Shown here piece after piece: positions 1 through 15,758 of a stretch of 15,758 nt of DNA (the stretch's first letter is position 1; every line of letters starts with the position of its first letter). The stretch spans positions 3,208-18,965 of the forward strand of contig PAYF01000032.1 in NCBI GenBank assembly GCA_002714745.1. Direction: 5' to 3'. Under the pieces are notes generated by a model, which had not been told where the DNA came from, searched no databases, and saw nothing but the letters and a program-made list of their open reading frames with translations. Origin of the DNA: Methanobacteriota archaeon (lineage in GTDB: Archaea; Thermoplasmatota; Poseidoniia; Poseidoniales; Thalassarchaeaceae). Made by a program: the position numbers and the translations under genes.

Positions 1-1758
1 CGAGTCCAGACTCCAACTCTTGGGTTCATCGTAGAGCGAGAGATCGAAAGAGAGGCACACGTCCCCATCGAATACCATAGCGTGCATGCAGATAGTCATG
101 GCATCAGATTCAATGTTAGATTCCACGAGAAAGACGACAGTGAAGCATGGTTCGATGATTCAGGCAAACATAGGGCAGATAGGACATCTGATGACGACCT
201 AGCCAAATCCACATTCAATGCACTAGATTCTTCTGACCTGATGACTATCACTTCCATTAAGGAAGGAATCACAAAGAGGAATCCCCAACCGCCCTTCACT
301 ACAGACACCATGCTCCAAGCCGGGAGCTCGACCCTGGGATGGTCCGTTTCAAAGACGAGTCGTGTGTCTTCGGCCCTATATCAATCGGGATACGTGACAT
401 ACATCAGAACTGATTCAACTAGGACTAATCCTGCTGCTCGAGATAAAGTCAGACAATATCTTAGAGACAAGTATGGTGATGATTATCTGGGTAAAGGAGT
501 AGTTGGAAAGGATGCCAAGGGCAAGGCGAAAGTCCAAGATGCTCATGAGGCGATTCGTCCAAGTAAGCCGGAAGTTGTATCAATCAATGCCTCGACTGAT
601 GAAAAGAGGCTTTACGCTCTGATTTGGGCACGTTTTGCTGCCAGCCAGATGTCCCAATCCATCAGAGAGAGGCGTGATTTGGAAGCTAATGTAGATGGTT
701 GTGAGAAGCCTCTGCGGGGAACAGCATCTTGGAGAACACATAGCGGATGGGAAGTGGTATTTGAGCAATTCAACGGTAATGTGATGACTAAGCCCCCCAA
801 GGGTGTTCTTGAACAAAATGCCAGTTGGCCCATTGCTCAAAGTGACGACAGTCCTAAGATGGTGACGGATCAAACAAAGCCACCTAGACGATATTCCGAG
901 AGTTCAATTGTTCAGGCTATGAAAAGTGCTGAAATTGGACGTCCTTCTACCTACGTCAGCACCATACAAAAGCTCACTGGTAGAGGATACGTTAATTCAA
1001 ATGGGGGCTCTCTTATTCCAACTGATGATGGTAGAATGTTGTGGACAGATGTAGTTCCATTCTACAATGAACAAGACGGGGATGTTGGCTTGTTCACTCC
1101 AGATTTCACATCACACATGGAAGGGAATCTGGACCTCGTTGAAAACGGATCACAGTTTGCCCCCGAAGTTTGGGACACATTCGTCACCCAATTCAGAGAC
1201 ATGCACAACAATGCTCTGGGTATCAGAAAACAAACTGCTACTCCCAGACAGAAATCTCTGATTGAGTCTCGATTGGTTCATCTTGAGCCCGAAATTAAGG
1301 ATGAGTTGTTGTCAGGGAAGACAATGGCCGAGATAACTGGGGATGAGGCTCGTGCTATCATCGATAAGTTGAAGGAAATTGGAGATAGTATGGGCTACCC
1401 TCCTAGTGAAAAGCAAGCCGCTCTGATTGTCAGACTATCAGACCAATTGGGTATGGGGCTGGATGGGGCGCTTGAACTAGCTGGAGTTAGTGAAATGTCG
1501 GCCTTGACAGGCGGTGGCGAAGGCACTGCAAGCGAGCTAATTGGAAATCTGATTGAGAAGACCAAGGACCTACCCGCGACAGAGTCACAGGTGAATCTCA
1601 TCGAGAAACTCGCTGAGCAGAATGACAAGAAACTCTCCGAGGTACTAGCGACAGTGGGTGCGAGGGATATCTCGGAGTTGACAAAAACTGATGCGAGTGA
1701 TATTATTTCGAAAATGAAGGGGCGCTCAAGGAGACAATCTAGGAGAAGTCGTTCCTAG
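1..1758 (+). CDS. topA: DNA topoisomerase I, bacterial type (3' part; 5' end outside window)
   Basis: Type IA topoisomerase that relaxes negatively supercoiled DNA by single-strand passage through a 5'-phosphotyrosine link. The reading frame is open from base 1 and starts inside the conserved RVQTPTLGFIVERE stretch, so the N-terminal Toprim part lies left of the window. The GTG at base 82 is internal. The catalytic tyrosine is in GYVTYIRTDST (codon 400-402, fragment residue 134). DAHEAIRPSKPE follows, then SAEIGRPSTYVSTIQ and the FTPDFTSHMEGNLD region. These motifs match the bacterial TopA subfamily rather than archaeal topoisomerase III. The usual C-terminal four-cysteine zinc ribbons are absent. 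Three diverged helical repeats (1237-1725) and an Arg/Ser-rich tail (RSRRQSRRSRS) take their place. It is followed after 30 bases by the reductase gene. Family assignment is firm; the role of the tail is unknown. Confidence 0.95.
   Translation, partial: RVQTPTLGFIVEREIEREAHVPIEYHSVHADSHGIRFNVRFHEKDDSEAWFDDSGKHRADRTSDDDLAKSTFNALDSSDLMTITSIKEGITKRNPQPPFTTDTMLQAGSSTLGWSVSKTSRVSSALYQSGYVTYIRTDSTRTNPAARDKVRQYLRDKYGDDYLGKGVVGKDAKGKAKVQDAHEAIRPSKPEVVSINASTDEKRLYALIWARFAASQMSQSIRERRDLEANVDGCEKPLRGTASWRTHSGWEVVFEQFNGNVMTKPPKGVLEQNASWPIAQSDDSPKMVTDQTKPPRRYSESSIVQAMKSAEIGRPSTYVSTIQKLTGRGYVNSNGGSLIPTDDGRMLWTDVVPFYNEQDGDVGLFTPDFTSHMEGNLDLVENGSQFAPEVWDTFVTQFRDMHNNALGIRKQTATPRQKSLIESRLVHLEPEIKDELLSGKTMAEITGDEARAIIDKLKEIGDSMGYPPSEKQAALIVRLSDQLGMGLDGALELAGVSEMSALTGGGEGTASELIGNLIEKTKDLPATESQVNLIEKLAEQNDKKLSEVLATVGARDISELTKTDASDIISKMKGRSRRQSRRSRS
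1237..1725 (+). repeat. Three diverged ~52-58-codon repeats in the TopA C-terminus
   Basis: Three tandem protein-level repeats are encoded at about 1237-1395, 1396-1569 and 1570-1725. Each begins with a Q-containing helix (ATPRQKSLIESRL; PPSEKQAALIVRLSDQLG; PATESQVNLIEKLAEQ). Each then has a linker and a closing helix (TGDEARAIIDKLKEI; GTASELIGNLIEKTK; KTDASDIISKMKG). The pattern 'P-S/T-x-x-Q-x-x-L-I-x-x-L ... A-x-x-I-I-x-x-L/M-K' resembles small helical modules found appended to DNA-handling proteins. They stand where bacterial TopA carries zinc ribbons, so a DNA-binding role is inferred. The copies differ enough that the DNA itself is not an obvious direct repeat. Confidence 0.7.
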
Positions 1759-5266: not shown

Positions 5267-6563
5267 CTTGCCCGATAATTGCCTCCATTTCGGAGATTTC
5301 CTTGGGACAGGATGAAGTTAGAACCACCGGGCCGTCCTTGGTGATTAGTACGTCATCTTCGATTCTAACTCCGATTCCAGCATACCTCTCAGGGATTTCG
5401 ACGTCTGTTCGCCAACTGCCGAAGTACAAACCTGGTTCGACAGTCACAATCATCCCTGGTCGGAGTACAGGCCCTGGATCATCATCACCTTGTCTGCCTC
5501 CACCTACGTCATGAACATCGAGTCCTAGGAAGTGGCCTGTTCCGTGCATGAAGTAATTACGATATGGGCCATCAAACTCCAAAGGGTCTCCGATTGCTTC
5601 ATCTAGGGTACAATCAAGAATTCCGAGTTCGATTAGGCCCTCAGCGATTACTCTAGATGCGGCTTCATGGAAGGCTACCCATCTGGCTCCGGGTTGACAT
5701 GCTTCGATTGCAGCAATCTGTGACTTCAGTACTAATTCGTAAATCTCCCTTTGAGCATCAGAAAACCTGCCATTAACAGGCCACGTGCGAGTGATATCTG
5801 ATGCATAGCCATCGACCTCGCAACCTGCATCGATGAGGACCAAATCCCCATCGCCAACGGGGTCGCGGTTTGAGTTGTAGTGCAGTATTGCAGCGTTCTC
5901 TCCGCCACCTACTATCGAAGGATATGCCCATTGTGAGCGATTTGAAGCGAAGCACGACTCAATTACAGATTGCAAATGCCATTCGCCAACTCCGGGTACA
6001 CCGGCCTTCATCGCTTGGATATGTGCCTGCGAGGCGAGTTCGGCCGACTTACTCATTAGTTCGATCTCGGCATCCGTTTTGATTACCCTAAGTGAATCAA
6101 GATTCGGTTTTGGGTCTGCAATCTCCTTACCGCAGTCGGCCAACAACGAATCAATCTTAGAATTCATGCCAGTAATAGAGAATACATGATTACAATCCTC
6201 AAGCAGAGGAGATAGTAATTTGTCTAAGTCATCAATAGAATGAGCATTGTCCACAGGCCAGTCTCTGGCAGCTCCCTCAGGGCCTGCCCTCCTTCCTTCC
6301 CAAATCTCTGATTTAGTATCCCTAGGCAAAACGAACAGGGATGTTGTCCATTCTCCTCCAGAATTACTTGCCATCCAAACAGAATCGGACTCTGTCCAAC
6401 CACATAGATAGAGCATGTATGAGTTCGCTCTGAATGGGTAATGAGTATCGTTTGACCTGATGGATTTAGGATTAGTTGGGATTAGTACAAGAGAGTTATC
6501 TGGCAATTCGCCTAGAAAGGCGGATTGTCTATTCGAATACTCTGATTCAGAGAAAGTTAGCAC
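5259..6563 (-). CDS. pepP: Xaa-Pro aminopeptidase (M24B)
   Basis: Dimetal aminopeptidase that removes an N-terminal residue preceding proline, normally cytosolic. Its 434 residues match Escherichia coli PepP along nearly their whole length. The aminopeptidase-P N-terminal domain (HYPFRANSYMLYLCGW, 41-56; IWEGRRAG, 87-94) is followed by the pita-bread catalytic domain. All five metal ligands are in place: Asp245 and Asp256 (IDAG... SDITRTWP), His344 (MHGTGHFLGLDVHD), Glu376 (TVEPGLY) and Glu402 (RIEDD). The start is GTG 6563: an in-frame stop lies at 6617-6615, no ATG occurs in between, and GAGGA sits 7 bases upstream. It follows the PKD protein gene by 47 bases and precedes mqnC by 4. Together with the secreted M6 protease elsewhere in the window it fits a proteolytic, peptide-using lifestyle. 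Confidence 0.95.
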   Translation of the reverse strand: MLTFSESEYSNRQSAFLGELPDNSLVLIPTNPKSIRSNDTHYPFRANSYMLYLCGWTESDSVWMASNSGGEWTTSLFVLPRDTKSEIWEGRRAGPEGAARDWPVDNAHSIDDLDKLLSPLLEDCNHVFSITGMNSKIDSLLADCGKEIADPKPNLDSLRVIKTDAEIELMSKSAELASQAHIQAMKAGVPGVGEWHLQSVIESCFASNRSQWAYPSIVGGGENAAILHYNSNRDPVGDGDLVLIDAGCEVDGYASDITRTWPVNGRFSDAQREIYELVLKSQIAAIEACQPGARWVAFHEAASRVIAEGLIELGILDCTLDEAIGDPLEFDGPYRNYFMHGTGHFLGLDVHDVGGGRQGDDDPGPVLRPGMIVTVEPGLYFGSWRTDVEIPERYAGIGVRIEDDVLITKDGPVVLTSSCPKEISEMEAIIGQEG

Positions 6564-10251: not shown

Positions 10252-12186
10252 CTATTCTTTTCTCCCGCCTGTAAGGATTGAGATTGAAACTAGAATCGAT
10301 ATCACTAGCAATCCGTTTGCCGGTTCTGCTAACCATGCCAGCCAGTTGTCGCCAGTGAAAGGAGATTCAGCTTCTAACAAAAGTGGGATTCGATGTTCGG
10401 TTCCGTGGACATCGGACAGTACAATTGTCCCCCTAGCCAGCATTCCTGGCTCAAGTAAACCCCTGGGGTCAACATCAATCGTAAGATAATCTCCTGAACT
10501 TAGGGAGGCAGGAGACTGGGCTGTGGCTACTCTCGAAACAGCCCCCTCCAGTGCGATTGAATATGTCATCACTCCATCCCCCTCGTATTCGGGCATGACG
10601 GTAACTGTGGATGGAGACTCCCAAGACACTACGGAGTACAGTTCATCAGAAGAAATCCTATGTCCGACTATGTCTATTTCAAGAGAAATGTCAGTCTTGC
10701 TCTCTCCCTCACAGCCGATGTTCCCAATAAGGGTAAACGAATCAGATGTTATCTCTTCGTGGCCCAGAATATTCACAATAGTGGTACCTGCTGGAATATC
10801 GACAAATTTCGCTGTAGAATCGTCCGACTGAGAAGTTGATAGTGAAATCTCAAGATTGCAGGGCTCAGAAGCAATCACCTCAGCGAACGCGGATTCTGAA
10901 GGCAGCAACTGCAGAGGAGATCTAGGAGTCAGGGCATCAGTATTGGAAACTGGCCCAGCATGGAATGAAACGGTCATTGAATCATCAGACATGGTATCGA
11001 CTGATACAGTCCAAGGTACAAGCCGTCCTCGATTATCTCTAATCTTCATGCCCGATGCACCGAATGAATCGCCAACATCGAAAGCATCGCCGGGACTGCC
11101 TGAATCTCTGCCCCTCTGAAGGGCCGCATCTCCATCAGCCTCAATTATCATGACCCAAGCATTGTCAGGATCTGTGTTTACCAGATTCTCGATTGGGTTT
11201 CCATTGTTCTCGTCAGAATGCTCTACTAGAATCCCGTGACCTGGGAGTTCGGTATCGAACCCTGATTCGCCCCTGTAAGTAATCCAAATGTGCTCTCCGG
11301 GTGCAATTGGGATTGCTAATCCGTGGCCACCGAATGATATGGGCTCAAGCACATGGGACGAGTCTGCTGATGCGTCAATCTCGATGTATCTGTCAGCACC
11401 TATCTGATTGAGAGAAGCCGCCCCCGGCATGGCAGGGGTGTCTCCGCCTCCATTCCAGTTTCCACTGGCCATGACATCCCAATCCCCCAAGCCGTTCCAA
11501 TTTGAGGACGGTATGTCACTGTGAACATCATACAAGTCGTAAGCACCCATTTGATGCAGCATCTCGTGAATCACAGTTCCTATGCCTGAGTCGAGAGATG
11601 CTATAGTGTAGTGATTGATTGACCAATCACCGATTTCCAAAGGCTCGCTTAGCCACGACATGTGACTCCACAGGGCATCAGAGCCTCCTCCTGATTCTTG
11701 AGCTCTTCCAGAATGGAGAATTAGTAGTCTATCCACTACTCCATCATTGTCGAAATCCCACTTCGAAAGATCCATTCCAGACAACAAGTCGAGGCAAGAT
11801 GCTTCAATCAGACCATCGACTGAAATGTCTCTCTCATCCTCTGAATCATAGCCCCAATGACTCTCCGGACTCGGAGATGACCATACTCTGTCCGAAACTG
11901 TGGCATACAGAACTGATTGAGAGCCACTCATCTGGCCGATATAGTTGCTAGCCGGACCGTCTGCATCGAACATTGAATCGGCTTTCTCCTGAGCAAACGG
12001 CCGGTCTGGAAATTCTACTCTCAGTACTAGCCATTCCTCAGTATCTTGCAACCCGACTAATTCGCTATCTTCCACAGATACGTTTGAGGGCTCACTCAGC
12101 CAATCCTCAAGCACATCTGGATTGCTGTTAGCCCAAATACCCAATAGCAGAATCGCCACTGCCAGAGCAGCCCGTGCTGCATTCAT
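10252..12186 (-). CDS. Membrane-anchored M6-family (immune inhibitor A-like) metalloprotease
   Basis: Predicted extracellular zinc protease of about 644 residues. A short positively charged N-terminus and hydrophobic helix (MNAARAALAVAILLLGIW) form a signal peptide or anchor. The catalytic domain has the calcium-type loop WDFDNDGVVDRLLILHSG (~143-160), then IHEMLHQMGAYDLYD with the HExxH zinc site at 207-211, and WDVMASGNWNGGG. A beta-rich region follows, and a second hydrophobic helix near the end (NGLLVISILVSISIL) gives a C-terminal anchor. ATG 12186 is preferred: the longer form from ATG 12273 would overlap the upstream gene by 61 bases and put 29 extra residues before the signal sequence. 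An AAGGTGA element at 12212-12206 is 19 bases from that ATG but only 4 from an in-frame CTG at 12201, so a CTG start is possible. It is the last gene of the leftward pntB-side cluster. Confidence 0.88.
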   Translation of the reverse strand: MNAARAALAVAILLLGIWANSNPDVLEDWLSEPSNVSVEDSELVGLQDTEEWLVLRVEFPDRPFAQEKADSMFDADGPASNYIGQMSGSQSVLYATVSDRVWSSPSPESHWGYDSEDERDISVDGLIEASCLDLLSGMDLSKWDFDNDGVVDRLLILHSGRAQESGGGSDALWSHMSWLSEPLEIGDWSINHYTIASLDSGIGTVIHEMLHQMGAYDLYDVHSDIPSSNWNGLGDWDVMASGNWNGGGDTPAMPGAASLNQIGADRYIEIDASADSSHVLEPISFGGHGLAIPIAPGEHIWITYRGESGFDTELPGHGILVEHSDENNGNPIENLVNTDPDNAWVMIIEADGDAALQRGRDSGSPGDAFDVGDSFGASGMKIRDNRGRLVPWTVSVDTMSDDSMTVSFHAGPVSNTDALTPRSPLQLLPSESAFAEVIASEPCNLEISLSTSQSDDSTAKFVDIPAGTTIVNILGHEEITSDSFTLIGNIGCEGESKTDISLEIDIVGHRISSDELYSVVSWESPSTVTVMPEYEGDGVMTYSIALEGAVSRVATAQSPASLSSGDYLTIDVDPRGLLEPGMLARGTIVLSDVHGTEHRIPLLLEAESPFTGDNWLAWLAEPANGLLVISILVSISILTGGRKE

Positions 12187-12212
12187 ACGCGGACGTCCCA
12201 GATTTTCACCTT

Positions 12213-13328
12213 TCAATCCAATGTAGTCCCGATTCTGATTTGTGTCGAATGGGTCAGAGATGACCTTTTCCATTCATCTGATTCTGCACGGGGTTCATCC
12301 AACCATCCCAGTCCTTCTATCGTGCAACTAACCGATTGTAGGCTGCGTTTGAGTTCAGATGGAATAGGTCCTGAGTCACAACCAGTGACTAATAAATTGG
12401 TTATAGAGTGCTGAGATACCAAGTCCGCAAGAGCTTCCTGTTCGTGAGGATTCAGGCATAGGGCTTCACATGAAGGGGAAGCCACTCCTACGGGCACACC
12501 ACCAAGAGGGACTCTCGGACAAGCGCCTTCGCAACCGCAGTCAACAATACCTAGTCTGATTGGATTTACGCCAGATTGGAGATTCTTTACTTCGAAATAA
12601 CGGCTTCCAAGAGCTGCAGCAGGTAGGCTGGAAGAGATTCGATCTGCAATCGCCATAGAACAGAAGGCTAAGATTATCCTAAGTCCTTCAAATTCCGATG
12701 GGAGACTCAGGATAAGTGCTCCTCCGAGGATAGCTAGCACCCTATTACGAAGCCTAGTATGTCCATCGTCCACCATACCTAGAAGGCGAGCTAAGGACAA
12801 GGTCACAGTAGAGAGAATGATGCATACTATAATCCAAGATACTCCAATAGCAAGGCCAAAGATAGATGCTGCATCGTATCTACTACCGACTCCTTCCAAG
12901 TTATCCGCTGCTAATGCTGCCTCAACAAGAGTTGGGAATCCCATCCACCAGAGCAAAATTGTAATCATAGGTAGAACGAAAGTGCTGAAAATCAAGACCA
13001 TGGTGAACCACGAACGTTCTCTTGGCATCAGGCCCGGGGAAGCGAATCGCTGCAAACGAATCGAAAGTAATGGCATAACCGTGAGGATAGAAAGCAGGAT
13101 GGATATCGCCCATTTCATCTCAAGCCAATCAAATGGAGAGTAGATGGAAAGGTCTAGTGAGTGATTCCCCAGTGGTAGTGTGTCCAGCCATGAGGTCATC
13201 AGTGAATCGCTGGAATAACTCCAGAGCAGAGATATTGCCAGAATCAGCAAGATAGTCTGTCTAAAAATTGAGTACAACTCGGAGAGATGGTTGGAAAGAT
13301 CGGTCCTTTTGGCGCTTGGGTGTTCCAT
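12213..13328 (-). CDS. TatC-like translocase protein fused to a cysteine-rich HdrA-N-like domain
   Basis: A polytopic membrane protein of 371 residues. Residues ~8-240 follow TatC, the substrate-binding core of the twin-arginine export system. They begin NHLSELYSIFRQ, matching the HLxELRxRL amphipathic start with its conserved Glu, and continue with YSPFDWLEMKWAIS and RFASPGLMPRERSW, matching 'FxxPgLxxxER' with the critical Glu. About six hydrophobic helices are predicted. A later Glu typical of TatC (SFEVP in E. coli) reads SWIIV here. The C-terminal ~115 residues are soluble and not part of TatC: GIVDCGCEGACP (Cys264, 266, 270), SPSCEALCLNPHEQ (287, 291) and LLVTGCDSGP (317). These align by eye with the N-terminal domain of HdrA (CHCG... 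CSDPGQ... VVxAaCSPR). ATG 13328 is chosen because the earlier TTG overlaps the upstream stop. It lies 5 bases after the Reeler-like gene. TatC homology is firm; the fused domain's identity is inferred. Confidence 0.82.
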   Translation of the reverse strand: MEHPSAKRTDLSNHLSELYSIFRQTILLILAISLLWSYSSDSLMTSWLDTLPLGNHSLDLSIYSPFDWLEMKWAISILLSILTVMPLLSIRLQRFASPGLMPRERSWFTMVLIFSTFVLPMITILLWWMGFPTLVEAALAADNLEGVGSRYDAASIFGLAIGVSWIIVCIILSTVTLSLARLLGMVDDGHTRLRNRVLAILGGALILSLPSEFEGLRIILAFCSMAIADRISSSLPAAALGSRYFEVKNLQSGVNPIRLGIVDCGCEGACPRVPLGGVPVGVASPSCEALCLNPHEQEALADLVSQHSITNLLVTGCDSGPIPSELKRSLQSVSCTIEGLGWLDEPRAESDEWKRSSLTHSTQIRIGTTLD

Positions 13329-13333
13329 GCTTC

Positions 13334-14383
13334 TCAAAGGATATCCTTGACCTCACGCTCTACCCTAGTTGCCAGAATAGTCCTGTACACTCCATACGCA
13401 GCCCATGCACTGAGGAAGAAGGCGCAACCTGTCAAGAATCCAGTGAGATCGGTAATACGAGTTCCCTCATGTACGATACTCGCAGGAGGAAAAGAGATTG
13501 CAGTATCAGAAGATAGCCATCGTACACCGACCACAAACGAGGCTATACTTAGCAAGCCTCTGCGCATTGCCTGTGGGTAAGCAAGTTCCGTGGCAAGATA
13601 TTCCGGGCCGTCTCCATATCTCCTCTCGAGTATTTCCTTTTGGAAGACTGCCCCTACTAGCAGAGCGACCAAACTGGTCCAATACAGGGCATTACCCTGT
13701 CGATAGATGCTAAGGGCTAGGGCTGCTTGCCTCTCAGCTTCCTTCTGAGCCTCTGATTCTTCAATAAGGAATAGAGTATCATAATCGCCTACAGATATTG
13801 TCCTAGTCTCTAGGGTGGCTGCATCGTCTCCAGACACTATAGTTCCAGGTGGGCTGATTGAGAATGAAAGGATGTTCCAATAATCCATCTCATCGGGTAT
13901 GCCTCCTCCATCTACTGAGTTTCCAACAAGCCAGAAGTTGACTTGGCCTACGTCTTCTGCAGGTGAGGTCCATGTAAGATCCCAAATTCCGTCGGAATCA
14001 GGTTCAGAGTGAGAGACATCATCGGGTGCATCCTCAGCTTGCCTGAGCTCTTGATCATTTGACCAAGAAAAGGTTCCTATTCCTTCAGAGGATAAGAGGA
14101 AACCCGCCTTGGTGTTGCCATCTTCTCCGGCTAGTGTGAGGGAATCAGCTACTTTGATTGTGAGCGGGTAAGAAACCTCGGTGTCATACATCACTGGAAC
14201 GCCAGTAATCATCACAACGACTCTTTCGGAAGCCGCATTATTGTGGCAAGAACATCCATACTTCACAGTAGCCTCATCATTGCCATTGAGTGCTGCTGGA
14301 CCGCCACTCATTCCGAGTGCAGGCAGTGCAAGAAGCGTCAGAATTACCAAGCAAACTGAGGCTTTAGTCACCGCTGCTCGCAT
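13334..14383 (-). CDS. Reeler / choice-of-anchor-V-like exported membrane protein with CxCH motif
   Basis: Envelope protein of 349 residues, function unknown. A Sec-type signal peptide (MRAAVTKASVCLVILTLLALPALG) is followed by a beta-rich exported domain (~37-177). It opens with YGCSCHNN (Cys44, Cys46, His47) and continues with VMITGVPVMYDTEVSYPLTI, GIWDLTWTSP, VNFWLVGNSVDGGG and DYWNILSFSI. This order and spacing resemble Reeler / choice-of-anchor-V domains, in which a cysteine-His motif often starts the domain. A charged Ala/Glu/Gln helix and three hydrophobic segments (~232-247, 275-290, 313-331) end the protein, placing the domain outside the cell. ATG 14383 is favoured over GTG 14398 because a strong GAGGTGG lies 11 bases upstream of it and covers the GTG. 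Five bases separate it from the TatC-like gene, so the two are probably one operon. Confidence 0.8.
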   Translation of the reverse strand: MRAAVTKASVCLVILTLLALPALGMSGGPAALNGNDEATVKYGCSCHNNAASERVVVMITGVPVMYDTEVSYPLTIKVADSLTLAGEDGNTKAGFLLSSEGIGTFSWSNDQELRQAEDAPDDVSHSEPDSDGIWDLTWTSPAEDVGQVNFWLVGNSVDGGGIPDEMDYWNILSFSISPPGTIVSGDDAATLETRTISVGDYDTLFLIEESEAQKEAERQAALALSIYRQGNALYWTSLVALLVGAVFQKEILERRYGDGPEYLATELAYPQAMRRGLLSIASFVVGVRWLSSDTAISFPPASIVHEGTRITDLTGFLTGCAFFLSAWAAYGVYRTILATRVEREVKDIL

Positions 14384-14394
14384 TGTCACCGGTA

Positions 14395-14401
14395 CCACCT
14401 C
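14395..14401 (-). promoter_or_regulatory. Ribosome binding site of the Reeler-like gene
   Basis: The minus strand reads GAGGTGG, a near-perfect Shine-Dalgarno sequence, 11 bases upstream of ATG 14383. It includes the alternative GTG start at 14398, which argues against that GTG being used. Confidence 0.5.
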
Positions 14402-14456: not shown

Positions 14457-15758
14457 TCACAACTCCTTCATGGATGAATTGAGTTCGTTCATCATCTTCT
14501 TGCCGTCACCGAACAGCATCATTGTCTTGTCCATGTAGAACAAATCATTGTCGACTCCAGCGTAACCTACAGATAGGCTTCTCTTGATGATTACGACCAC
14601 CCTCGCCTTGTCAACATCAAGAATCGGCATCCCTGCTAGAGGCCCTTCTCCTGTCCTAGCTGCCGGGTTGGTCGTGTCGTTGGCACCGATTACCAGTGCT
14701 ACATCGCACTCAGGGAATTCTGGATTGATCTCATCCATCTCGATTAGTTTCTCATATGGAACGCTGGCTTCGGCAAGCAGGACGTTCATGTGGCCGGGCA
14801 TTCTTCCAGCTACTGGGTGAATGGCGTACAAGACCTCACAACCCTCAGCTTCCATCAAGTCGGCGAACTCCTTGACTGCGTGCTGGCTTTGGCTCACTGC
14901 CATTCCATAGCCCGGGATAACAATCACCTTCTGGGCACCGTCGAGAACCATTGCGACTTCTTCGGGATCGCTCCCGACCTTGGTGCGAGTTAACTTATCC
15001 TTCTCTCCGGAACCACCGAATGCCTTGAACAGTACATCTGGCAGCGTTCTATTCATTGCCTTGCACATGATGAAAGTCAGAATCAGCCCTGCTGCGCCAA
15101 CCATTGAACCTGCAATAATCAGAACGTTGTTTCCGATTACAAATCCGGTGAATGCTGCTGCAATTCCAGATAATGAGTTCAGTAGGCTAACTACCACTGG
15201 CATGTCAGCTCCACCGATTGGGATTACGAATAGAATACCAAGCAGACTTGAGAAGCCCACAATCATCCAGATGTAGTCCTTGTTCGTTGGATCATCAATG
15301 GTCATCCAGATTAATGCTAGGGAGGCTGTGAGCAGAAGAATCTTGACAGCATTCAGCCAAGGAGGGCCCCATGTTGGGAAACTAATCCACTTGGGGCGAC
15401 CGCGATCATCCTTCTTGCTGAATGGGAGATAGAAACCACCCTTGAGTTTCATCATAGCCATAATGGAGCCAGTCAAGGTGATGCAACCGACGATTCCAGA
15501 AAGTCCGATAGCAACCCAAACTGCGTACAACTCGACACCGGCATCGGGAATATTTCCTTGCTGTAACCTGCCCAGAACCTCCGAAAGGGCTACCAATGCG
15601 GATGCGCCGCCACCGAATCCATTGAACAGGGCTACTAGTTCGGGCATCCCTGTCATCTCTACTCTGGTAGCCATTAGAGCGCCAATGATGGCACCGATGG
15701 CCAGACCACCTACAATCAACTCCCAACCTATGATGCCCTCCGATTGCATCCTAGCTAG
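14457..15758 (-). CDS. pntB: NAD(P) transhydrogenase, beta subunit (5' end outside window)
   Basis: Membrane subunit of the proton-translocating transhydrogenase, which uses the proton gradient to reduce NADP with NADH. ATG 15749 gives 430 residues, but the frame stays open to the window edge. Comparison with full-length PntB (about 460-480 residues) suggests that roughly the first membrane helices are missing, so the true start probably lies beyond base 15758. Domain II shows MATRVEMTGMPELVALFNGFGGGASALVA and many hydrophobic helices. Domain III (~270-430, numbered from that ATG) has the NADP(H) fold with VIVIPGYGMAVSQSQ, HPVAGRMPGHMNVLLAEA, VIGANDTTNPAA and the C-terminal KRSLSVGYAGVDNDLF. 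The alpha subunit (pntA) is not in the window and would be expected upstream, to the right. A hairpin and a 73-base gap separate it from the next gene. Confidence 0.95.
   Translation of the reverse strand, partial: LARMQSEGIIGWELIVGGLAIGAIIGALMATRVEMTGMPELVALFNGFGGGASALVALSEVLGRLQQGNIPDAGVELYAVWVAIGLSGIVGCITLTGSIMAMMKLKGGFYLPFSKKDDRGRPKWISFPTWGPPWLNAVKILLLTASLALIWMTIDDPTNKDYIWMIVGFSSLLGILFVIPIGGADMPVVVSLLNSLSGIAAAFTGFVIGNNVLIIAGSMVGAAGLILTFIMCKAMNRTLPDVLFKAFGGSGEKDKLTRTKVGSDPEEVAMVLDGAQKVIVIPGYGMAVSQSQHAVKEFADLMEAEGCEVLYAIHPVAGRMPGHMNVLLAEASVPYEKLIEMDEINPEFPECDVALVIGANDTTNPAARTGEGPLAGMPILDVDKARVVVIIKRSLSVGYAGVDNDLFYMDKTMMLFGDGKKMMNELNSSMKEL

Follow-up and report, generated by a model that had tools for sequence, protein, structure and literature searches.

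Candidatus Poseidoniales (Thermoplasmatota) are very common surface-ocean archaea. The twin-arginine translocation (Tat) pathway exports folded cofactor proteins, and its TatC subunit has its C terminus on the cytosolic side. Haloarchaeal TatCt resembles the system described here in having two TatC units, but these are two domains of a single chain, which to our knowledge has no tail like the N-terminal domain of HdrA (HdrA-N). We analyzed tatC2, a gene on a 15,758-nucleotide (nt) stretch (the window) of contig PAYF01000032.1 (C32), which belongs to a 1.21-Mb genome (G000) that is 67% complete. The tatC2 product joins a TatC core to a homolog of HdrA-N, and a second TatC (TatC1) is encoded elsewhere in the genome; judged from the residues that each keeps, the two are almost certainly reciprocally degenerate.

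In a structure of the Escherichia coli system reported in 2026, TatC residues H12, E15, F94, Y100, and E103 recognize the twin-arginine peptide, and E103A is used as a binding-negative control (PMC13323110). The complex described there consists of three TatBC units, in which each TatB touches one TatC at transmembrane helix 5 (TMH5) and the TMH5-6 loop, and the next TatC at TMH1 (PMC13323110). E. coli TatC is described as functioning as an obligate oligomer (PMC5102672). The HdrA N-terminal domain is reported to carry an iron-sulfur (Fe-S) cluster, one ligand of which, Cys197, comes from the other HdrA copy (PMC9012536). That account also includes tandem HdrA paralogs in anaerobic methanotrophic archaea (ANME), which have complementary losses and for which a heterodimer is proposed (PMC9012536); the parallel with the TatC pair is one of pattern, as HdrA is a different protein that is unrelated to TatC.

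The tatC2 product

The original prediction, of a TatC homolog with a long C-terminal extension, was borne out. Pfam TatC (PF00902) matches residues 17 to 204, counted on the form with a TTG start, with an E value of 8.6e-13 and 49 bits (cutoff, 25.1), and the tail that follows is about 125 amino acids (aa) long and has no match in the Pfam scan. An AlphaFold2 model of the full-length protein, with a mean predicted local distance difference test (pLDDT) score of 78.2, has six helices in the core (residues 11 to 50, 65 to 99, 102 to 145, 153 to 182, 192 to 208, and 217 to 233) and a mixed alpha/beta tail. The frame is open to the stop at 12213 both from the ATG and from the alternative TTG at 13337. 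The length from the ATG is in line with that of the 10 closest full-length homologs (371 or 372 aa), and the gene starts directly after the stop of its upstream neighbor.

Like E. coli TatC, the protein has a six-helix core that scores above the Pfam cutoff and keeps the equivalents of H12, E15, P85, F94, and E103. Unlike E. coli TatC, it carries the HdrA-N tail and has lost the F-E-x-P motif of transmembrane segment 4 (TM4) and P221 and L225 of TM6, which are mostly borne by TatC1. As far as its residues indicate, the product is a TatC homolog that has part of the conserved set and falls short of a complete TatC. It is not an HdrA: the chain consists of TatC plus tail, without the thioredoxin-reductase/FAD and ferredoxin domains.

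Two TatC paralogs with apparent reciprocal losses

We searched 60 related genomes, 55 of which had a match to the whole protein, and read 50 of the 55 matching loci (those of G030, G040, G044, G054, and G056 were left out). Exactly two TatC genes were found in 52 of the 60 genomes, one in 7, and none in 1 (G053). TatA was present in 59 genomes, with one copy in 58. Among 18 other Thermoplasmatota genomes with TatC, from outside the class, 17 have one TatC and G093 has two partial ones. In the genome of the window, where the original prediction had proposed looking for a normal tatC and tatA, a normal-sized TatC and a TatA are both present; TatC1 lies at positions 5803 to 6645 of contig C28 (L185).

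Conserved residues were compared across 18 outgroup, 21 TatC1, and 50 TatC2 proteins, with duplicate TatC1 loci removed and the sister family, MGIII, kept out of the outgroup. Two motifs scored without an alignment separate the groups. The signal-binding motif of loop 1 occurs in 18/18 outgroup, 0/21 TatC1, and 48/50 TatC2 proteins, and the F-[EQ]-x-P motif of TM4 occurs in 18/18, 21/21, and 0/50, respectively. Individual positions (E. coli numbering) follow the same division when expressed as the fraction of TatC1/TatC2 proteins that keep the outgroup residue. The residues kept mainly in TatC2 are E15 (0.00/0.78), P85 (0/1.00), F94 (0/1.00), P97 (0/0.70), L99 (0.19/0.98), and E103 (0.10/1.00), whereas those kept mainly in TatC1 are P54 (1.00/0.06), L117 (1.00/0.34), G121 (1.00/0.06), F157 (1.00/0.14), F169 (1.00/0.18), P172 (1.00/0.00), P221 (1.00/0.00), and L225 (1.00/0.02). 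At the twin-arginine site, the 50 TatC2 proteins have H12 in 49 (with one gap), F94 and E103 in all 50, and Glu (39) or Asp (7) at position 15, where TatC1 has His in 16/21. Both TatCs largely retain V64P, P131, G144, P209, and G182.

In an hmmalign alignment, which has gaps at positions 12, 15, 221, and 225 in at least one of the two groups and leaves most of the TatC2 TM4 unaligned, TatC2 has P, F, and E at positions 85, 94, and 103 in 50/50 proteins, and P85 and F94 are not among the commonest residues of TatC1. Positions 99 and 103 are less clear as markers of the division, given that TatC1 in this alignment has L at 99 in 11/21 and E at 103 in 5/21. D211 was dropped as a marker because the outgroup lacks it. 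The best matches to solved structures were 9e03 for TatC2 (E value, 1.2e-5; residues 14 to 156) and 9r91 for TatC1 (E value, 6.3e-10; residues 124 to 249), with weaker matches covering more of each protein.

The reciprocal degeneration of the two TatCs is the new element here, and it gives what appears to be another meaning to the Glu of the SFEVP region (E. coli E170). The original prediction had found this Glu missing and suggested altered function; the Glu is indeed lost (fraction, 0.00 in 50 relatives), and the suggestion can be refined, in that the loss would belong to the way the two TatCs have divided the conserved residues. Our literature search, whose coverage excluded most subscription journals, brought up neither a report of a TatC-HdrA fusion nor one about the TatC of Poseidoniales.

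The TatC2 tail is homologous to the N-terminal domain of HdrA

The tail had been thought to follow the layout of the HdrA N terminus, and fold, profile search, and profile-profile comparison all upheld this. A model of the tail alone (residues 247 to 371) has a pLDDT of 87.5, and HdrA chains take ranks 1 to 7 when this model is searched against PDB with Foldseek and again with VIA-align. Six of the seven VIA-align alignments lie inside HdrA residues 2 to 143, and for the seventh, 8rvy_A, the listed range is 11..643. A profile of 45 tails had a single match among 146 sampled genomes outside Poseidoniales, to an HdrA N-terminal domain, with an E value in that one genome of 1.3e-5; in a sample of 194 genomes from the phylum, the profile matched 39 (38 Poseidoniales and 1 other). 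Profile-profile alignment of the tail with HdrA-N scored 33.2, compared with a maximum of 22.5 over 200 column shuffles, and hhalign gave a probability of 62.6% (P = 7.3e-5).

All seven cysteines that the original prediction named are at the positions given (264, 266, 270, 287, 291, 317, and 335). Cysteines 264, 266, 291, and 317 are conserved in 45/45 tails and in register with 31/31 HdrA-N sequences in the profile-profile alignment, while 270 (27/45), 287 (14/45), and 335 (27/45) vary. The tail shares with HdrA (5odc, 8rvy, and 7bkb) the fold of residues ~1 to 140, the four cysteine positions, and a similar spacing, with 26 residues from Cys291 to Cys317 and 25 in the HdrA of L053. It differs in having no thioredoxin-reductase/FAD or ferredoxin domain, and so no Cys197 partner ligand, and in sitting on a membrane translocase. 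We are highly confident that the tail is a homolog of the N-terminal, Fe-S-binding domain of HdrA.

FlpD/MvhD (PF02662) has, by eye, a cysteine order similar to that of the tail, and the proposed comparison with this family gave a weaker result than that with HdrA. An MvhD/FlpD identity is unsupported, as hhalign gives 2.6% for the tail against FlpD (89.8% for HdrA-N against FlpD), and the FlpD model matched no Poseidoniales genome in the genome search. An HdrA model searched against 24 Poseidoniales genomes had weak matches in 14 (best E value, 5.0e-6) and none in 10, and no whole HdrA was seen in these 24 genomes.

In most of the loci L020 to L052, from the family with 2-Mb genomes and some f1 genera, TatC2 extends tens of residues beyond the HdrA-like core. 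By eye, this extra stretch resembles the REQCSWVH segment of HdrA.

Distribution and age of the fusion

Recurrence of the fusion in related genomes, proposed earlier as a check, was found widely. The tail profile matched a single gene in each of 48/60 genomes, where the TatC2 gene lies; in G040, the tail-bearing copy is split across two contig ends. No whole-protein match was found in G002, G003, G004, G006, or G053 (G004 is 97% complete and G053 is 90% complete). Of the TatC2 proteins read, 45/50 have the tail, and the fusion is maintained in both families of the order. Genome size suggests that these families, f1 and f2, are probably Thalassarchaeaceae and Poseidoniaceae, respectively. The five tail-less proteins (L019, L028, L029, L043, and L046) end at 241 to 261 aa and come from several f1 lineages. 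A profile search of a large protein set returned 98 proteins, 86 of them at least 370 aa long; one family member (P0057) carries the name "twin-arginine translocase subunit TatC [Poseidonia sp.]," and a homolog with 66% identity is in a marine Euryarchaeota metagenome-assembled genome record (PBWO01000039.1). This recurrence, across the two families and among numerous metagenome sequences, rules out an assembly or frame artifact.

No stand-alone tail gene was established among nine candidate proteins, of which five were read (P0105 and P0108 to P0111) and four were not (P0011, P0104, P0106, and P0107). Each of the five starts within TatC or within the tail, or is cut short there; P0110, a 104-aa protein from a 44-kb contig, may be a copy with a broken frame or else a short gene.

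When 96 TatC domains were placed on a tree, a single well-supported branch set apart each of TatC2 (50 proteins; 100/100), TatC1 (21; 100/99), and the outgroup (19, E. coli among them; 100/89). We examined five genomes of MGIII (f3). Both kinds of TatC were found in G062, and in G127 a TatC1-like gene is accompanied by a TatC2-like gene in two contig-end pieces. The two TatC1-like and four full TatC2-like proteins of MGIII show the same motif split. The TatC1-like pair groups with TatC1 (100/96), while the four TatC2-like proteins are tail-less and do not form one group on the tree, the branch of L161 being very long. Because the MGIII TatC1-like proteins fall with TatC1 and the TatC2-like proteins have no tail, the division between the TatCs is probably older than the fusion. 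Of the tail-less proteins, only L019, whose sister is L012, and L028, whose sister is L013, look like separate losses of the tail; L029 and L043/L046 have low positions in the gene tree.

Gene neighborhood

A fixed cluster in both families consists of pntB, a CxCH membrane protein, tatC2, and an M6 peptidase gene (Table 1), and the neighbors are also kept at the five tail-less loci. C49, C51, and H52 of the GC-x-CH motif are invariant in the 46 sequences that cover it, and the protein's only Pfam match, to Reeler, is below the cutoff. The motif is one residue short of CxxCH and could be a heme, metal, or thiol site. The longest M6 open reading frame runs into the end of tatC2; the gene more likely starts near 12186, beyond the stop of tatC2, which would remove the overlap. 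The neighborhood leans toward a redox function at the membrane without proving it.

Table 1. Features of the window (all on the minus strand); locus counts are limited by short flanks and contig ends
Feature	Coordinates	Strand	Details
tatC2 (TatC core plus C-terminal HdrA-N-like domain)	12213..13328	-	371 aa from ATG 13328
TatC core	12624..13328	-	Residues 1-235; Pfam and AlphaFold2 model
Signal-peptide-binding positions kept	13017..13289	-	H14, E17, P86, F95, E104 (E. coli H12, E15, P85, F94, E103)
Degenerate TM4 segment	12822..12842	-	Residues ~163-169; place of the usual F-[EQ]-x-P (E. coli F169-E170-V-P172)
HdrA N-terminal-domain homolog	12216..12590	-	Residues 247-371; stretch used for folding and fold search
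Cys264-x-Cys266	12531..12539	-	HdrA CxC position; invariant in 45/45 tails
Cys291	12456..12458	-	HdrA "CS" position; invariant in 45/45 tails
Cys317 of GC	12378..12380	-	HdrA "ASC/AAC" position; invariant in 45/45 tails
pntB, NAD(P) transhydrogenase beta subunit	14457..15749	-	Pfam PNTB; homolog in 44/50 loci
Membrane protein with GC-x-CH	13334..14398	-	N-terminal signal-like segment (by eye); directly upstream of tatC2; 49/50 loci
M6-type metallopeptidase-like gene	10252..12273	-	Pfam PF05547; downstream of tatC2; 48/50 loci

A possible hetero-oligomeric receptor and its alternatives

We postulate that TatC1, TatC2, and the genome's TatA form one hetero-oligomeric Tat receptor. TatC2, which keeps the twin-arginine site at its N terminus and first cytosolic loop and has lost most conserved TM3 to TM6 positions, would dock the signal peptide. 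TatC1, which no longer has that site and retains most of TM3 to TM6, would contribute the missing half. The TatBC ring contacts and obligate oligomerization in E. coli make a ring of two kinds of TatC a natural reading. Since TatC ends cytosolically, the tail would be placed at the docking face, where it could bind an Fe-S cluster, and docking or release of folded cargo might then respond to redox or oxygen state in the cytosol, perhaps together with the transhydrogenase and the CxCH membrane protein encoded alongside.

As a whole, a TatC1/TatC2 heteroreceptor with an HdrA-type redox domain is the best explanation we can offer, at marginally better than even confidence. That the two TatCs work together as a heteromer is likely, although our confidence is lowered because three of the five MGIII genomes have a TatC2-like gene only. 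Binding of an Fe-S cluster by the tail is predicted with comparable confidence from its conserved cysteines. Redox gating of export is a tentative suggestion, somewhat more apt to be wrong than right, and the strongest form of the proposal, an obligate and asymmetric two-paralog receptor in which the Fe-S domain opens and closes export by redox state, seems rather unlikely.

Several observations weigh against our explanation. The three MGIII genomes with only a TatC2-like gene (G137, G190, and G196) are 86 to 92% complete. Among the 60 relatives, only TatC1 was found in G002, G003, G004, and G006 and only TatC2 in G009, G024, and G034, and the comparatively complete G053 and G004 have no TatC and TatC1 only, respectively; gaps in incomplete genomes may account for missing copies. 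The losses are not fully complementary, as both TatCs have lost, or almost lost, A98, F118, F165, G166, E170, W193, A196, Y226, and G229, and TatC1 itself has Gln in place of E170 (21/21). The tail profile has no match in the five MGIII genomes, and these tail-less TatC2-like genes, together with the 5/50 tail-less TatC2 proteins, mean that the tail cannot be essential to transport. For the tail, hhalign by itself gives the HdrA relation only 62.6%, and no significant match came from sequence searches against Pfam, NCBIfam, or PDB sequences: there were 0 matches to PDB sequences up to an E value of 10, and NCBIfam HdrA (E value, 0.047) and Pfam FlpD (E value, 0.18) each appeared for 1/45 tails, with unrelated names at similar E values. 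Because the tail has no thioredoxin-reductase domain, it has no counterpart of Cys197, and all cluster ligands must come from the tail or from another partner. Finally, motif scans over 321 kb of the genome of the window turned up no canonical Tat substrate. A strict scan gave RR 1, KK 0, and RK/KR 1, and a loose scan gave RR 6 (one being TatC1 itself), KK 1, RK 3, and KR 2, with one protein counted in both RK and KR.

An HdrA-N fold kept without its cluster, with the four cysteines holding zinc or a disulfide and the tail serving as a structural or docking appendage, is unlikely but deserves to be taken seriously. It would fit the missing counterpart of Cys197 and the absence of the tail from several lineages, and surface-ocean aerobes may be hostile to exposed clusters. 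Yet 45/45 diverged tails keep the four HdrA cysteine positions, and no other cysteine is invariant.

We also see a low probability that the tail binds a cluster but is an electron-transfer module instead of an export gate, exchanging electrons with a soluble carrier and serving the transhydrogenase or the CxCH protein, with TatC2 a mere membrane anchor. The fixed neighborhood with pntB and the CxCH protein is what such a module would predict, and the HdrA N-domain cluster is reported to lie within an electron path (PMC9012536). However, an anchor would not need the equivalents of F94 and E103, which TatC2 strictly keeps (50/50), and the same neighborhood holds where the tail is absent.

Equally doubtful is the proposal that TatC1 and TatC2 belong to separate translocases, or have both gone from export, each having drifted. 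Each TatC alone does lack residues important in E. coli, the two genes are not encoded together in the genome of the window (C28 and C32), and a single TatC occurs in 7/60 genomes and 3/5 MGIII genomes. Against this, the two TatCs show complementary losses that are fixed in each of the two families as well as in MGIII, just one TatA is present in 58/60 genomes, and independent decay would hardly yield near-0 versus near-100 percent patterns on both sides.

It is quite improbable that the tail checks cofactor-bearing cargo, docking Fe-S or folded cargo or assembly factors before export while its cluster or cysteines transfer or sense; the tail's place beside the docking site and the export of folded cofactor proteins by Tat would suit this role, but TatC2 is retained in tail-less lineages and no Fe-S Tat cargo was found in the genome of the window. 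The sole Rieske match there, ~5.5 kb from TatC1, was rejected as cargo; it starts without a signal-like segment and looks like a cytosolic oxygenase.

Implications

The sharing of work within a Tat receptor is hard to test in systems such as that of E. coli, in which every TatC copy is the same. Poseidoniales seem to have split signal binding and the TM3 to TM6 functions into two genes, which would make them a natural test of the two sites. In addition, an Fe-S module known from electron bifurcation in methanogens sits on a protein exporter, and if our explanation is true, redox state could have a bearing on whether folded proteins are exported. The reciprocal degeneration of the TatCs makes the system more interesting: the exporter of these archaea looks two-part and is possibly redox sensing.
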